Shown piece by piece: positions 7,260-15,282 of a stretch of DNA of 20,148 nucleotides. Within the stretch, counting starts at the first letter, position 1. Each line of letters opens with the position of its first letter. A program made the translations under genes and the position numbers. The DNA is from a virus, in IMG/VR virus record IMGVR_UViG_3300037042_002387, positions 1 through 20,148 of that record. The stretch is one strand, 5' to 3'. Under the pieces are notes generated by a model. It saw only the letters and a list, made by a program, of their open reading frames with translations. It had not been told where the DNA came from and did no database searches.

Positions 7260-8450
7260 ATGGAAGATAAAAAAATAGATAGTGATTTATTCAGAGTGTT
7301 TCAAGGACAACAAGCACGAGTACCAATCATTGAAGAACAGCCAGGATATAATAATAGAACGCCGTGGGTATTCTACGGTATCGCAAATCTTGCTCCCCAA
7401 GAACTAATCCGTCTCTACAACAGTTCTCCGACCCACAGAGCGTCGATAATGTCAAAGTGGTATGGTGTTAGGGGTGAAGAAATATCGTTGAAGGACGGGG
7501 ATAATTCTCGTCTTATGATGGTAAATTCATTGGGAGATTCCTTATATGATATTTGGAATAAATGCACTTTGGATTTTATTCTTTATGGAGCATTTGCTGT
7601 CAATATTGTCTATAAAAGAGATAGGGATTTAGGGTTTGAAATGTATGCTATGGATGCATCAAAATTGAGAGCCGAGAGAAATGACCTTAATGACCATGTG
7701 AATAATTACTATTACTCTTCTGATTGGGCTAATATTAAAAAGTTTCCACCAAGAAAATTACCAGCAATGAATTTCAATGCTGATGACCCATCACAGGTAT
7801 TTTATTATACAACTCACACACCTGGCGCAGAATACTATGCCTGTCCAACATATTGGGGAGGTGCTACAAGTATTTCAACAGAGGTGGAAATATACAACTG
7901 GTTTCACTCAAATATTGTTAATGGATTACAACCATCTTTATTTGTGGCTCTCAATTCAGGAATTCCTGCACCTGAACAGAGACAAGAGATTTTTGAGACC
8001 TTAACCGCAAAATATGGAGGAAGCAACAATCCTGGTAAGTTGATGCTGACCTTTGCTAATTCCAAAGAAGAAGCACCTGAAATCACATCAATCGGTACAA
8101 ATGGAACTGATACAATGTTTATTGAATTAGCAAAAAAGGTTCAAGAGTCGATTCTCACCAGCCATCAGGTCTCCTCGGCGAATTTGTTGGGTATTCAAAC
8201 TCCGGGATCTTTGGGGGTTCCGGATCATCTAGAAGCACAAAACCATTTTCAGCACCTTGTAATTTTTCCCATCCAAAAAGAGATTCGTGGTGTGTTCGAG
8301 AAATTATTAAGATTGAGAGATAACAAACCAGCAGAAATAGAAATTAAACAATTTGAGATGGTAACCACTCCTGACGCAGCACCTATTGAAACGGTGAATG
8401 TAAATAAGGATGTTGCTGTTGATGAAAATAAAGACGAAACCATAGTATAA
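7260..8450 (+). CDS. Phage portal protein (PBSX-type)
   Basis: 396 residues matching the PBSX-type phage portal family in layout: an N-terminal region with PWVFYGIANLAPQELIRLYN, a core with LGDSLYDIWNKCTLDFILYG and GFEMYAMDASKLRAERND, the YYTTHTPGAEYYACPTYWGG segment, the stem region NWFHSNIVNGLQPSLFVALN, and the crown-side PGKLMLTFANSKEEAPEI plus SILTSHQVSSANLLGI. It forms the dodecameric ring at the capsid vertex through which DNA is packaged and to which the tail attaches. The C-terminus (DVAVDENKDETIV) is acidic and disordered. Only 1 nt separates it from the adaptor gene downstream. Its position after the capsid gene and far from the terminase is unusual. Family call is firm. Confidence 0.9.
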   Translation: MEDKKIDSDLFRVFQGQQARVPIIEEQPGYNNRTPWVFYGIANLAPQELIRLYNSSPTHRASIMSKWYGVRGEEISLKDGDNSRLMMVNSLGDSLYDIWNKCTLDFILYGAFAVNIVYKRDRDLGFEMYAMDASKLRAERNDLNDHVNNYYYSSDWANIKKFPPRKLPAMNFNADDPSQVFYYTTHTPGAEYYACPTYWGGATSISTEVEIYNWFHSNIVNGLQPSLFVALNSGIPAPEQRQEIFETLTAKYGGSNNPGKLMLTFANSKEEAPEITSIGTNGTDTMFIELAKKVQESILTSHQVSSANLLGIQTPGSLGVPDHLEAQNHFQHLVIFPIQKEIRGVFEKLLRLRDNKPAEIEIKQFEMVTTPDAAPIETVNVNKDVAVDENKDETIV

Positions 8451-8451
8451 T

Positions 8452-9063
8452 ATGTCAGCACTAATTCCTCAAAATGTATTGCTCATTTCCGAGCAGAAAT
8501 TAAAAAATTACAGTGACATTGACCAAAATGTTACAACTGCGGTATTATTACCTTTTATATCTGTCGTTCAACAAACAAAGTTGGAATACATAATTGGCGG
8601 CAAATACTATAAAGAATTATTGGAAGGGGTAATCAACTCAAACTTGAGTACGAATGACTTGAATTTCCTTGAATACTTTGCTCAACCATTATTGATTTGG
8701 GCTGCTTATGCGGAGGCATTACCATCTGTATTCATGAGAATTAAAAATAATGGTATTGTGACTGGTGCCGAAAATACTGTAACCATCAAAGAGATGGAAT
8801 ATATGCAAACTCGGGCTGATGACAGGTCTCAATTCTTTGAGCAAAGAATGATTGAACAAATCATTTGGAATTCTAACTTATATCCATCTATATTCAACTA
8901 TTCTACACAGAATGGGATGCGCCCGCATTTGGGCAAGAACTACTATTCAGGTGTTGAATTATCACTTGGTAGATTTTCAGGTTATGACATCGCAACAGGA
9001 ATGCAAAAAGCAGGTATTGGTTATTATTCTGGTCCCGAGTACGCATGTCTTTGGGGGTATTAA
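8452..9063 (+). CDS. Head-tail adaptor-like protein (DUF6712-like)
   Basis: 203 residues, starting 1 nt after the portal stop. The N-terminal half is helical (TTAVLLPFISVVQQTKLEYI, KYYKELLEGVI, FLEYFAQPLLIWAAYAEALP), as in the helical adaptor proteins that dock under the portal ring. A segment IKEMEYMQTRADDRSQFFEQ and a YPSIFNYSTQNGMRP motif follow; the C-terminus is Gly/Tyr-rich and looks flexible. The wording LLPFISVVQQTKLEYIIGG...YYKELL resembles DUF6712 proteins found beside portals in Bacteroidetes phages. Adaptor role is inferred from that resemblance and from tight coupling to the portal gene. Confidence 0.6.
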   Translation: MSALIPQNVLLISEQKLKNYSDIDQNVTTAVLLPFISVVQQTKLEYIIGGKYYKELLEGVINSNLSTNDLNFLEYFAQPLLIWAAYAEALPSVFMRIKNNGIVTGAENTVTIKEMEYMQTRADDRSQFFEQRMIEQIIWNSNLYPSIFNYSTQNGMRPHLGKNYYSGVELSLGRFSGYDIATGMQKAGIGYYSGPEYACLWGY

Positions 9064-9328: not shown

Positions 9329-10191
9329 TGCCCATCCCCTCAAGAAGAAAAGACGAAGACAAGGACAAGTTTGTATCCCGTTGTATTAGTGAAATAATTG
9401 ACGAATACGGACAGGAACAAGCGTCAGCGATATGTTATACCAAATCAGAGGAGAAAATGTCTGTATCGGTCTCTAATGAGGTCGAGGAGGTATTCGTCTT
9501 GAAACCAAAGAAGACCGAATCGAGAGGGAAGTATTTGTCGAGATGTTCCGCTCACCCAAAGATGAAGGAACGAATGAAGGATATGAAGGAACGAATGGGT
9601 TTCTGTCTATCAAGTTTCAATGAATACTACAAGTATTGGGCTAAATTGGAATCATTCGGTGAGAAGGATACAAAGGGAACTGTTCTTGGGGATTGTATCG
9701 CAGGTAAAAAAGCACAGGGATTAGATTATAAAGAAGCCTACGCCAGATGTGCGTCAAAGGTAGTTGTTCCAAACACTCCAATATCTATGGATGAGGACAA
9801 TTTATTGATTGAGCCAGTTGAATTTCAAGAGTGCCCACCAGCAACATTGGATATTCCATTAAACATTGCCAACAGACAGAAATGTATTGACCAAGCCAAT
9901 TATGGACCATTAGACCCAAATCTTCCAAATGACGATTATTGGAAGAAAAAGGCTGACCAATTTAATACAACTCCACAGCAAGCAAAAAAAGCGTTATGTG
10001 GGAATTGTGCGTTCTTTGTTCAGACAAAGGAAATTATGAATTGTATATCACAAGGATTGGGAGATGTTGGAGTAGATCCATACGACTCAATTAAAGCGGG
10101 AGATTTAGGATATTGTGAGGCTTATGATTTCAAATGTGCTGCGAGTAGAACTTGTGATGCTTGGGTTGTGGGTGGTCCAATAACTGATTAA
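9328..10191 (+). CDS. Cys-rich protein with duplicated SRC motif and C-terminal six-Cys domain
   Basis: 287 residues. The start ATG overlaps the previous stop. The N-terminal part has two related units: KDKFVSRCISEIIDEYGQEQ ending in C36, and RGKYLSRCSAHPKMKERMKD ending in C93. A third Cys-containing stretch is LGDCIAGKKAQ...YARCASK. The C-terminal domain (residues 220-284) has Cys at 224, 227, 239, 263, 270 and 276 in CGNCAFF...MNC...GYCEAYDFKC...TCDAWVVGGP. That spacing recalls the small HiPIP-like Cys clusters seen in marine phage structural proteins, and could bind an Fe-S cluster or zinc. It sits between head/membrane genes and the propeller gene, so a virion role is likely. Metal binding is an inference from Cys spacing. 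Confidence 0.5.
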   Translation: MPIPSRRKDEDKDKFVSRCISEIIDEYGQEQASAICYTKSEEKMSVSVSNEVEEVFVLKPKKTESRGKYLSRCSAHPKMKERMKDMKERMGFCLSSFNEYYKYWAKLESFGEKDTKGTVLGDCIAGKKAQGLDYKEAYARCASKVVVPNTPISMDEDNLLIEPVEFQECPPATLDIPLNIANRQKCIDQANYGPLDPNLPNDDYWKKKADQFNTTPQQAKKALCGNCAFFVQTKEIMNCISQGLGDVGVDPYDSIKAGDLGYCEAYDFKCAASRTCDAWVVGGPITD

Positions 10192-10218
10192 ATAAATTAT
10201 AAATAAAAAACAAAAAAT

Positions 10219-11836: not shown

Positions 11837-11845
11837 GTTTATACA

Positions 11846-11878
11846 TTTGACTTTTTAGGTAGGTATAGTTATATTTTG
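11846..11878 (+). promoter_or_regulatory. Bacteroidetes-type promoter for the small-gene region
   Basis: TTTG at 11846-11849, a 20-nt spacer, then TATATTTTG at 11870-11878, close to the Bacteroidetes -33 TTTG and -7 TAnnTTTG with one extra base in the -7 box. It lies just after the terminator and 19 nt before the ATG at 11898. Confidence 0.55.
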
Positions 11879-11897
11879 TTATAAACAAATTAGAAAA

Positions 11898-12346: not shown

Positions 12347-12396
12347 ATAAAAAAGGGGCTTCTCTTACATGCCATGTTTTTCCCCCCCTTTTTACC
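12347..12396 (+). terminator. A-run/G4 ... C7/T-run inverted repeat
   Basis: AAAAAGGGG can pair with CCCCTTTTT across about 30 nt that include a small internal hairpin (ACATG-C-CATGT). It directly precedes a compact terminator, so the two may act as a tandem pair. Confidence 0.45.
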
Positions 12397-12423
12397 TCAT
12401 CAATCGTGATGAGGTTTTTTTTT
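12394..12423 (+). terminator. Rho-independent terminator
   Basis: Stem ACCTCATCA/TGATGAGGT (9 bp), loop ATCG, then nine Ts (12415-12423) and further T-rich sequence. Ends the 11898-12330 transcript. Confidence 0.9.
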
Positions 12424-12443
12424 ATTTTTTTTTTACAAATAGT

Positions 12444-12500
12444 TTTGCGGTCTGAAATATATTCACCACCTTTACATCTCACACTTAAACACACAAAGAA
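12444..12500 (+). promoter_or_regulatory. Promoter/leader cassette, copy 1
   Basis: TTTG at 12444-12447, 19-nt spacer, CACCTTTA at 12467-12474, then a leader with TCACACTTAAACACACA just before the ATG at 12501. First of the repeated promoter/leader units. Unlike the later copies it follows a terminator rather than a gene end. Confidence 0.7.
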
Positions 12501-12818
12501 ATGACAGAAATATTAAAAAGATTTAATGACTATGATAAATGGTTCATCGATGGTTTGACTAACCAAATGTGCGGTGATTATTCAGACGAAAATTTCGACT
12601 GCAAACCTGAAAACATCCCATTCCAAACATTGATTAAAATAATGGAATTATATGTTCAAATTTGTGAGGACAATATCTTTTTCCGTCTTGATGTTGAAAG
12701 GAGATGGGAAGATTTCAAAGACAAAGATGGAATTTTCCAAGATTTATATGATGATATTTTTGAAGAACATAATGATTTTTTCTTTGAATTATCTCAAGAA
12801 TATCCCTTACCTTCGTAA
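12501..12818 (+). CDS. Small acidic protein, unknown function
   Basis: 105 residues, strongly acidic (many Asp/Glu, several Phe/Tyr/Trp), for example IFQDLYDDIFEEHNDFFFEL. Likely all-alpha. The last residues, YPLPS, matter for regulation: the bases coding LPS-stop (TTACCTTCGTAA) contain a -7-like box for the next gene. The gene at 13629 also ends ESLPS and has the same arrangement. No family recognised. The high negative charge makes a DNA-mimic or inhibitor role possible, but that is speculation. Confidence 0.7.
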   Translation: MTEILKRFNDYDKWFIDGLTNQMCGDYSDENFDCKPENIPFQTLIKIMELYVQICEDNIFFRLDVERRWEDFKDKDGIFQDLYDDIFEEHNDFFFELSQEYPLPS

Positions 12819-12841
12819 TTCACACTTAAACACACAGACAA
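12783..12841 (+). promoter_or_regulatory. Promoter/leader cassette, copy 2 (inside the 3' end of the upstream gene)
   Basis: TTTG at 12783-12786, 21-nt spacer, TACCTTCG at 12808-12815. The -33 box and most of the -7 box are coding sequence of the gene ending at 12818. The leader TTCACACTTAAACACACA is identical to that of other copies. Confidence 0.55.
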
Positions 12842-12973
12842 ATGAAACTAACAAAAAACAACATCCTATCAGTAATCAAAGAACATGATATTTTCTTGTA
12901 CTTTGATTGTTTGAATCTGACTTATCCAAACCTTAAAAAATTTTATAGACAAAATTTTGTAGAGTCAGAATAA
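12842..12973 (+). CDS. Very small protein related to the next gene at its N-terminus
   Basis: 43 residues, MKLTKNNILSVIKEHDIFLY then FDCLNLTYPNLKKFYRQNFV and ESE-stop. The start MKLTxNxI and the motif pattern xxYFxxxxxxPNxxxFxxxxF are shared with the 96-residue product of 13013-13303. It therefore looks like a short or internally deleted paralogue joined to a shared 3' end. It has its own promoter cassette and a normal start and stop, so it is probably a real gene. Function unknown. The final VESE is shared with the products of 13013 and 13343. Confidence 0.6.
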   Translation: MKLTKNNILSVIKEHDIFLYFDCLNLTYPNLKKFYRQNFVESE

Positions 12974-13012
12974 TTTATCACCTTTGTATTTCACACTTAA
13001 ACACACAGAGAA
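12956..13012 (+). promoter_or_regulatory. Promoter/leader cassette, copy 3
   Basis: TTTG at 12956-12959 (within the Phe-Val codons of the upstream gene), 19-nt spacer, CACCTTTG at 12979-12986, then TTCACACTTAAACACACA and the ATG at 13013. The unit from gene end to leader is nearly identical to copies 4 and 5. Confidence 0.75.
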
Positions 13013-13303
13013 ATGAAACTTACCGAAAATCAGATTGAAACTATTGTCCGATTAAAAACAGAGGATAAACTTTATTATTTTGGGACTTATGATTCTAACC
13101 CAAATTATACAGATTTTCTTGAGAGAACATTTGGGGAAGATTATCACGAATTGCACGATGAGTGGCAAAGATGTTATGACTTTGAATTTGATATGGATTG
13201 GTATGTATATCAAGTTACTGATGTCATGAGTGAAGACATGACACAATGGATTGAAGAAGGATTAGAAATAAAAAAAGAAATTCTTTTGGTAGAATCAGAA
13301 TAA
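13013..13303 (+). CDS. Small acidic protein, unknown function
   Basis: 96 residues, acidic and aromatic-rich: MKLTENQIETIVRLKTEDKL, YYFGTYDSNPNYTDFLERTF, YHELHDEWQRCYDFEFDMDW, ending EILLVESE. Its N-terminal half is related to the 43-residue product just upstream (12842). The C-terminal half has no partner in the window. It starts from cassette copy 3 and its last codons carry the -33 box of copy 4. No recognised domain. An early host-interaction role is plausible from size, charge and setting only. Confidence 0.7.
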   Translation: MKLTENQIETIVRLKTEDKLYYFGTYDSNPNYTDFLERTFGEDYHELHDEWQRCYDFEFDMDWYVYQVTDVMSEDMTQWIEEGLEIKKEILLVESE

Positions 13304-13342
13304 TTTATCACCTTTACATCTCACACTTAAACACACAGAAAA
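13285..13342 (+). promoter_or_regulatory. Promoter/leader cassette, copy 4
   Basis: TTTG at 13285-13288, 20-nt spacer, CACCTTTA at 13309-13316, leader TCACACTTAAACACACA, ATG at 13343. The -33 box lies in the codons for Leu-Val of the upstream gene's LVESE ending. Confidence 0.75.
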
Positions 13343-13585
13343 ATGACAGCATCACGCAAACTTTATTTAATCGGTTACTACTTGGAACGATTTGAATCTA
13401 CTAATGGAGAATTTGAATTAGGTCCATACTCAATTAGAAATATCATAAATTTTATTATGAATGATTCTGAATTAGATGAGATTTCTAATGAGGATGTAGA
13501 TGTAGATTTTGTAGAAACTTATTTTCAATTAAATGATATAGAACTTGCAGAATGTATGACCGATTTTTTGGTAGAATCAGAATAA
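13343..13585 (+). CDS. Small acidic protein, unknown function
   Basis: 80 residues: MTASRKLYLIGYYLERFEST, then GPYSIRNIINFIMNDSELDE and a very acidic middle (ISNEDVDVDFVETYFQLNDI), ending MTDFLVESE. The body is unlike the neighbours, yet the last five residues and the DNA through to the next leader match the upstream gene's ending almost base for base. That is what a new reading frame inserted between two copies of a shared cassette would look like. Function unknown. Confidence 0.7.
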   Translation: MTASRKLYLIGYYLERFESTNGEFELGPYSIRNIINFIMNDSELDEISNEDVDVDFVETYFQLNDIELAECMTDFLVESE

Positions 13586-13628
13586 TTTATCACCTTTGTA
13601 TTTCACAATTAGACACACAAAAACAACT
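13567..13628 (+). promoter_or_regulatory. Promoter/leader cassette, copy 5
   Basis: TTTG at 13567-13570, 20-nt spacer, CACCTTTG at 13591-13598, leader TTCACAATTAGACACACA (two changes from the common form). The -7 box overlaps an in-frame TTG at 13596, which rules that codon out as the start of the next gene if the promoter is real. Confidence 0.75.
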
Positions 13629-14105
13629 ATGAAAACTCAATTCAGAACAAACCCCGAGAATCTTGCATCACAAATCCTTTACAGAGAGGGACTTAATAAA
13701 TTTGATGTCGTAGAAATGATAGTCCAAGATTACTATGCGAACATTCCTGTTGAGAACACTCACTCGGTTTGGCTTCATTTTACAGAGAATGTTCTCAAAA
13801 GAAATAACAAAAAGATTTTCACATCATCCATCGAGAAACTATTATGGGATTCCTACCACAAAAATGTTTGTGGTAATCTCCGAGAATTGAAAGAGAGCGT
13901 TTATTCCTTCATGGAAGAGGTCGATTTGATTTGGTCTATTGATTATGTTGGTGATTTCCAAGATTTTGTAATGGATCATACATCCACATATTTGGATAGA
14001 TTTGATGACCATGTCGAATGGGCATTAGAAAATATCCCATCAGAAGATGAAGAAATTATTTCAACAGATGTTTGGAACTCTAACACCGAATCCCTACCTT
14101 CTTAA
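13629..14105 (+). CDS. Small protein, unknown function
   Basis: 158 residues from the ATG at 13629 (MKTQFRTNPENLASQILYRE). The longer frame from TTG 13596 starts inside the promoter and is rejected. The middle is helical with several Trp (SVWLHFTENVLKRNNKK, KLLWDSYHKNVCGNLRELKE); the C-terminal part is acidic (YLDRFDDHVEWALENIPSED) and ends ESLPS. That ending and the stop overlap the next gene's -7-like box, as in 12501-12818. Largest of the cassette-driven genes. No family recognised. Confidence 0.7.
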   Translation: MKTQFRTNPENLASQILYREGLNKFDVVEMIVQDYYANIPVENTHSVWLHFTENVLKRNNKKIFTSSIEKLLWDSYHKNVCGNLRELKESVYSFMEEVDLIWSIDYVGDFQDFVMDHTSTYLDRFDDHVEWALENIPSEDEEIISTDVWNSNTESLPS

Positions 14106-14127
14106 TTCACAATAAAAAATAATAGAT
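14071..14127 (+). promoter_or_regulatory. Promoter/leader cassette, copy 6 (degenerate)
   Basis: TTTG at 14071-14074, 20-nt spacer, TACCTTCT at 14095-14102 inside the LPS-stop codons, then TTCACA and a diverged A-rich leader to the ATG at 14128. Confidence 0.45.
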
Positions 14128-14406
14128 ATGAAAATAAATTTAGCGAAGAATATCAAATCAAGATTGATTGAATTTCTTGAATCTCAAATTGAGAGAGGTC
14201 GTATGGATATTGGTGATTATCTATTTGTGGAAGATCTATTGATGGATGACGATGGATATGCTGATTGGTTGAATACTAATTGGTGGATTATCAAAGAATA
14301 CAATATGTTATATGTTCGTGATTTTATGACATGGTCATATCTATTGGATTCGGAAGCGTCAAGTCCTGTTAAATTAGAATATTATTTTAATGAGAATTGT
14401 GTGTAG
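14128..14406 (+). CDS. Small acidic protein, unknown function
   Basis: 92 residues: a basic start (MKINLAKNIKSRLIEFLESQ) followed by an acidic, Trp/Tyr-rich body (IGDYLFVEDLLMDDDGYADW, WWIIKEYNMLYVRDFMTWSY). Probably helical. Last gene of the cassette array, ending at a clear terminator 8 nt later. No recognised domain. Confidence 0.7.
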   Translation: MKINLAKNIKSRLIEFLESQIERGRMDIGDYLFVEDLLMDDDGYADWLNTNWWIIKEYNMLYVRDFMTWSYLLDSEASSPVKLEYYFNENCV

Positions 14407-14413
14407 TGTTAAG

Positions 14414-14439
14414 ACCCCTGCTATTCAGTAGGGGTTTTT
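14414..14439 (+). terminator. Terminator ending the small-gene array
   Basis: Stem ACCCCTGCT/AGTAGGGGT (9 bp including one G-T pair), loop ATTC, then five Ts. The stem also contains the stop codon of the convergent minus-strand gene. Without a T-run on the minus strand it should act mainly on + transcripts. Confidence 0.85.
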
Positions 14440-15005: not shown

Positions 15006-15170
15006 TTAATAATTTACTTGTTTATTATTTAACTTTTTTAGACGCTCACTATATTTATAATTGTAGTTGAACTGACAGGCAAGGTTCAATATCGCCCAAA
15101 GGGTATAATCGGCACGGAACGAGAGTATGGGTCTTACAGGTGGATAAATCCAAATAGGAAATTGAGACAT
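15006..15170 (-). CDS. Possible small minus-strand gene or gene remnant
   Basis: 54 residues from an ATG at 15170. The frame stays open upstream to about 15225 without another ATG, with a TTG at 15191. The sequence SQFPIWIYPPVRPILSFRAD then YTLWAILNLACQFNYNYKYS and a basic end (ERLKKLNNKQVNY) looks more protein-like than a random frame, and nothing lies opposite it. There is no promoter or family match I can point to, and the GC-richer DNA could equally be a structured RNA or the tail of a gene from elsewhere. Confidence 0.2.
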   Translation of the reverse strand: MSQFPIWIYPPVRPILSFRADYTLWAILNLACQFNYNYKYSERLKKLNNKQVNY

Positions 15171-15282
15171 ACCTGCTACAAAAAAGGTCAATAATGGATA
15201 GTAAGATATGGGGGAATGGAACTGGTCTTATGAAACTTATTGGGTGAGGTGTAAAAAAATAGGGAACTAGAGGTCTGCTTAA

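Follow-up and report, generated by a model that had tools for sequence, protein, structure and literature searches.

The window analysed here, a 20,148-base IMG/VR virus record (WIN in comparisons), carries a plus-strand block of six small genes (12501-14406), probably an array of accessory genes bracketed by terminators; the phage itself is probably small and siphovirus-like, with a host in the Bacteroidota. As judged from sequence comparison, its promoter-bearing gene ends are likely to act as joints at which accessory genes are both expressed and exchanged. The left part of the window holds phage structural genes, among them a portal gene at 7260-8450 that matches Pfam Phage_portal with E = 1.5e-6, below that family's curated cut-off. 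The array is followed on the opposite strand by a gene that we read as HNH-like, without a confident Pfam match, and to the right of it lie more genes, including a DNA methyltransferase. The features of the array and its borders are:

12348-12422, plus strand: left array border, hairpins in tandem with a T-rich intrinsic terminator at their end (fold z = -5.9, equalled by 0/200 shuffles)
12444-12500, plus strand: unit 1, TTTG-N19-CACCTTTA and leader, noncoding
12501-12818, plus strand: g1, 105 aa, family F69, tail EYPLPS-stop encoding promoter 2
12783-12841, plus strand: unit 2, whole TTTG/TACCTTCG promoter within the g1 end, and leader
12842-12973, plus strand: g2, 43 aa, FVESE-stop end
12956-13012, plus strand: unit 3, -33 box coding (FVESE), stop in the spacer, CACCTTTG, leader
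13013-13303, plus strand: g3, 96 aa, family F90, LVESE-stop end
13285-13342, plus strand: unit 4, -33 box coding, CACCTTTA, leader
13343-13585, plus strand: g4, 80 aa, family F48, LVESE-stop end
13567-13628, plus strand: unit 5, -33 box coding, CACCTTTG, leader
13629-14105, plus strand: g5, 158 aa, SLPS-stop end, tail encoding the -7 box TACCTTCT
14071-14127, plus strand: unit 6, TTTG/TACCTTCT within the g5 end, short leader
14128-14406, plus strand: g6, 92 aa, family F20, last array gene here, ENCV-stop
14411-14438, plus strand: right array border, intrinsic terminator (z = -5.1)

An earlier note had proposed that each of the six genes is preceded by TTTG-N19-21-YACCTTY, and the pattern indeed has six matches in the window, all on the plus strand and at the unit starts listed above, compared with a mean of 0.23, and never six, in dinucleotide shuffles. 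Copies 2-6 have their -33 box within coding sequence of the gene before, and for copies 2 and 6 this extends to the -7 box (LPS-stop); these claims held, as did those of three VESE ends (genes 12842, 13013 and 13343) and two LPS ends. A 67-nt direct repeat is present in five copies at 12451-13641, and the -7 boxes of copies 1-6 read, in order, CACCTTTA, TACCTTCG, CACCTTTG, CACCTTTA, CACCTTTG and TACCTTCT. The leader (TTCACACTTAAACACACA..), said to be nearly identical in the first five copies, is so in copies 1-4, is only recognisable in copy 5 (TTCACAATTAGACACACA) and is reduced in copy 6. Two sub-alleles distinguish copies 1 and 4 (CACCTTTACATCTCAC..ATGACAG) from copies 3 and 5 (CACCTTTGTATTTCAC), and the first codons ATGAAACTnAC are common to copies 2 and 3, so unit sharing can extend into the coding start. 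Structured RNA within the units was considered and rejected, since shuffled sequences fold as well as units 2-6 (z -0.95 to +1.08), which also have no Rfam match. A terminator scan of the window array found none between the genes, only at the borders, with one terminator-like site (12394-12415) inside the left border element. The left-border hairpin (window 12348-12395), upstream of the first array promoter, has a conserved (T)ATGCCAT loop that is also seen in L006 (~8825-8870), L021 (~10150-10200) and L032.

Relatives were collected as ~90 IMG/VR loci from portal, g6, F12-family, g1 and g4 searches, and promoter statistics were computed for 17 arrays including the window (100 array genes), with 121 core genes as control. 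The array site of the relatives is flanked by conserved small genes (F7, F11 or F24) on one side and by the HNH-like gene on the other, and holds from none to ~14 small genes. The full promoter pattern, of TTTG/TAHYTTTG type and defined as TTTG-N18-22-YANNTTY within 85 nt upstream, precedes 49/100 array genes but 1/121 core genes (Markov control 1.7), and a -7-like box precedes 67/100 and 3/121, respectively. TTTG stands 19 nt (27 cases) or 20 nt (16) before the -7-like box and almost nowhere else. Among the 49 promoters, 25 contain the stop of the previous gene in their spacer, 6 are wholly coding and 18 are noncoding. The array promoter logo, TTTG ... TA(C/T)CTTTGT, matches the published Bacteroidetes consensus TTTG/TANNTTTG, and transcription from Bacteroidetes primary-sigma promoters starts 4-5 nt after the -7 box (PMC6847099). 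The arrays share the boxes of the sigma-ABfr promoter, TTTG / TAnnTTTG (PMC6847099), with a spacing sharply set at 19-20 nt throughout the phage family; they differ from it in preferring TA(C/T)CTTTGT, and the noncoding ones in extending the -33 box to TTTGnnnGTA rather than GAATCA. The earlier description of Bacteroidetes-type promoters fits the relatives, where -33 TTTG and -7 TAnnTTTG lie ~19-20 nt apart, whereas strict TAnnTTTG occurs in 0/6 window -7 boxes, each being 1-2 bases off consensus.

Two further kinds of upstream element were seen. One, the promoter-like sequence type TTGACT..TATATTTTGTTATA, differs from the array promoters, lies at window 11840-11897 and, in many relatives, 5' of the conserved F7 gene, and may represent another expression class. 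The other, absent from the window, is a leader motif, CGGGGACAGG-N-CTGAACA, a short CAG/CTG hairpin with fixed flanks directly 5' of the last array gene or genes, on different gene families (L084:7081, L087:7230, L089:7193, L021:12138, L063:6854, L082:3690 and 4047, L083:3959); Rfam gave no match to it in L082.

Similarity between the units of one genome goes beyond chance, at 12.05 as against 10.07 in permutations (sd 0.27), driven by WIN, L064, L032 and L062. L064 (5939-7700) has several near-identical noncoding units, TTTGTGGGTAATATAAAAACCCCTACCTTTG, in an array of the same kind with the promoter outside the genes. These observations bear on a simpler account, in which every gene requires a host-type promoter, promoters arose convergently in disordered gene ends of a tight genome, mosaicism is ordinary, breaks are left at gene boundaries by selection alone and the units are inert in recombination; we regard it as a serious possibility, although at clearly less than an even chance. 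Strict spacing of the promoter architecture would follow from it, and the C-terminus of g6 (residues 78-92) has low confidence in an otherwise helical structure prediction, which makes it likely that this tail is disordered and can tolerate change. It accounts poorly for genome-specific spacer and leader sequence beyond the consensus that is common to unrelated genes of one genome (WIN, L064), and the consensus fails to explain the GAATCAGAATAA tail, noncoding promoters having TTTGnnnGTA and not GAATCA.

Two tail classes recur on ~20 unrelated gene families. Class A, (L/F)-x-(E/D)-S-(E/K/N)-stop, was found in 17/35 array genes with a promoter after them, compared with 2/82 without one and 3/205 other genes, while class B tails (SLPL, LPS or PNFV, then stop) are the translated -7 box. 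The class A serine codon is TCA in 19/23 cases against a 42% background (p = 9e-5, for families that are not fully independent), and this points to the DNA rather than the peptide. Selection on the C-terminal peptide itself (VESE, ESK, ESN), for example as a stability or localisation tag that overlaps the promoter incidentally, would agree with recurrence of the tail on so many families in many phages, but we consider it very improbable given that the tail is almost confined to genes followed by a promoter, with one preferred serine codon. Moreover, g6 lacks the tail where no promoter follows, ending in NENCV or DENCV (WIN, L006), and its orthologs in L021 and L062, with a promoter embedded in the gene, end in AESE-stop; L064, with mostly noncoding promoters, is also without the tail, and the second tail class merely translates the -7 box. 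The promoter consensus was rejected as the whole explanation of VESE and accounts for it only in part, since noncoding promoters use TTTGnnnGTA. Overall, the comparison shows C-termini in unrelated families that appear to be shaped by regulatory needs of the DNA.

Tails persist where neighbours do not. The g1, g3 and g4 families keep promoter-bearing tails in distant phages with differing successors. Homologs of g1 are L083:3621 (65%) and L089:6863 (42%), and the L083 copy retains TTTG..TTACCTTTG in its tail (SLPL-stop) ahead of an unrelated gene. The g3 homolog L066:789 (45%) has an LVESEN-stop end, a promoter and then a different gene, and each of the g4 homologs L006:9227 (LVNPE) and L077:6250 (LVDSE) is followed by a promoter-like site and a different gene. 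Such retention by F48, F69 and F90 across distant phages is also what vertical inheritance would give, and to that extent suits convergent compact promoters. The gene bodies differ, as the earlier note had stated, with no homology detected by clustering or profile comparison. Repeated units in one genome could likewise stem from tandem duplication, the genes then being old paralogs that diverged in their bodies but kept similar promoters and ends. This was rejected, and we hold it to be very improbable indeed, because the bodies show no profile-profile similarity, the predicted folds differ (g6 all-helical, F12 alpha/beta) and the array families recur elsewhere, in other phages, in a different order.

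Gene order in the arrays is extensively shuffled: the same right neighbour was found in 3/70 ortholog pairs of arrays versus 345/647 of the core, the latter figure being lowered by loose clustering of multi-domain families. Near-identical phages (L084, L087, L088, L089) served as natural experiments. F39 (L088) and F105 (L089) are unrelated genes with the same units on both flanks; the sequence shared by the two phages extends through LEESN-stop, promoter, leader and ATGAAACTATC, breaks off, and is found again from the TTCCCTAACTTCG unit ahead of F12. L087 has an additional gene, flanked by unit sequence on either side, between F39 and F12, and a three-gene insert after F7 that yields a new promoter-bearing F7 end. 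Its F40 has an L089-type body, with tail and promoter of L084 type from ..AATTTTG onwards. The F31|F32 gap is empty in L084 and L088; in L087 it contains a gene of 72 aa and in L089 it contains F69, the g1 family. Both inserts end with identical promoter sequence. The position between F12 and F41 is variously occupied by F28, F70 or F78, and no promoter is present at the left edge of this swap. The edges of the insertions and body swaps lie mostly at the gene-end/promoter/leader unit. All 16 listed junctions lie <=35 nt from a start or stop, compared with 29% of array positions, a set that is partly non-independent and to which selection against broken genes contributes. Promoter units are missing from the junctions F12|F28, F31|insert and WIN 12354, and are therefore not required at joints. 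That breaks also occur at promoterless boundaries is expected if the units are inert and promoters merely convergent, but one recombinant breaks exactly at the joint between tail-promoter and gene body.

For the window itself, the earlier note had suggested probing related genomes with one unit. As an exact DNA probe the window unit is nearly private to its phage, with a close copy only in L006; relatives bear their own unit versions, and a search with the gene-end and promoter pattern found only L021. Window 13499-13619 matches L006:9380-9500 at 78%, covering the g4 end and unit 5 and stopping in the leader, after which unrelated genes follow (g5 in the window, F12 in L006). Left of g6, similarity to L006 begins at 14113, within the g6 leader. 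The opposite outcome, the same genes in the same order without unit-bounded variation, was looked for and not found. The proposed platform for swapping small genes in and out is thus largely supported, mostly in relatives, by the same architecture around different genes, shuffled order and unit-bounded swaps, with some joints lacking a promoter; the clearest swaps come from relatives that resemble the window at family level only.

Taken together, comparison shows strictly spaced putative promoters, promoter-bearing ends on unrelated genes, shuffled order and joints at or beside the units. We propose that about half of the array genes would have their own host-type promoter, usually borne by the preceding gene, whose last codons would supply the -33 TTTG. 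The stop would fall in the spacer or just past the -7 box, and a short leader rich in A would lead to the ATG of the following gene. If the units are active as promoters in infected cells, each gene end could form a socket that expresses whichever gene lands behind it, and short homology between units may help recombination to place new genes. Just short of an even chance, in our estimate, is the stronger version, in which last codons, promoter and leader would form a transplantable module grafted on unrelated genes in place of their natural C-termini, with exchange by short homology and immediate expression from the main sigma factor of the host. The units may cause recombination, or they may simply be the sole junctions that are tolerated; breaks at gene boundaries could also result purely from selection for intact genes and promoters. 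In the ~31.7-kb relative G001, none of the ORFs checked was recognised as a recombinase, so recombination functions would have to come from the host or a co-infecting phage. The 35,471-base G001 record (L097+L098) repeats its start at 31,657, which gives this genome size, and small differences between the two copies of the ends (for example MSCNLNSGIG versus MSCNVSAGIA) point to a mixed assembly.

Several known systems resemble the array in part. A comparison with the promoter-early stem-loop (PeSL) cassettes of T4-like phages, the nearest known kind, reportedly described by Arbiol 2010 and Comeau 2014, had already been drawn in the earlier note. These are mobile regulatory cassettes of T4-like myoviruses (PMC4503421), and the likeness lies in host-type promoter units between small accessory genes that are linked to gene shuffling among relatives. 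A putative early, host-type promoter is found here across the family, with window boxes 1-2 bases off, as is modular shuffling between relatives. Each PeSL unit has a stem-loop or terminator, whereas terminators here occur only at the borders; the promoter here is of Bacteroidota type and is embedded in the coding end of the gene before it, and the carrier is a small phage, not a T4-like myovirus. The array may therefore be said to work like PeSL cassettes, by analogy, but is not a member of that class.

SAS is a 13-bp motif abutting gene starts in cluster K mycobacteriophages, tentatively tied to translation initiation, and ESAS adds 17-bp inverted repeats (PMC3203893). Like the units, these are short repeats just 5' of many small genes of different families, in subgroup-specific versions; the unit here, in contrast, comprises promoter and leader and overlaps coding sequence. 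Identity with SAS/ESAS was rejected, as the 13-bp GGGATAGGAGCCC motif had no match at gene starts with <=2 mismatches allowed. The array genes also recall morons. Morons of lambdoid phages are accessory genes with their own promoter and terminator, inserted between other genes. Here, a gene usually bears the promoter of its successor, no terminators lie between array genes and terminators bracket the array as a whole. A limited search of open-licence literature found no description of a swap array with promoters in gene ends.

No annotated phage had DNA similarity to the array, unit matches being at chance level only. By portal, the nearest cultured relatives are Nonlabens phages P12024S and P12024L (25% identity), and no comparable promoter array was found in P12024S. 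A portal search of bacterial genomes gave no relative, so no host or prophage was identified. A candidate structured RNA lies to the right of the HNH-like gene: a stretch of ~120 nt (GGGTATAATCGGCACGGAACGAGAGTATGGGTCTTACAGGTGGATAAATCC; window 15060-15180, also L006 10850-10970 and L054 ~2560-2690 on the minus strand) that is strongly conserved and apparently noncoding, with no match in Rfam. The payload yielded no usable Pfam, PHROG or PADLOC match, and fold searches with g6 and F12 gave no significant match. The window array proteins are mostly acidic (pI 4.1-4.5 in 5/6); that such small, often acidic proteins would serve host takeover or counter-defence is only a guess.

For annotation, it matters that shared tails are not homology. 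A search for the tail-promoter signature could be a simple finder of rapidly exchanged genes in uncultured Bacteroidota phages, possibly including counter-defence genes. With each gene end being a ready promoter, small phages could gain and lose accessory genes while keeping expression intact.
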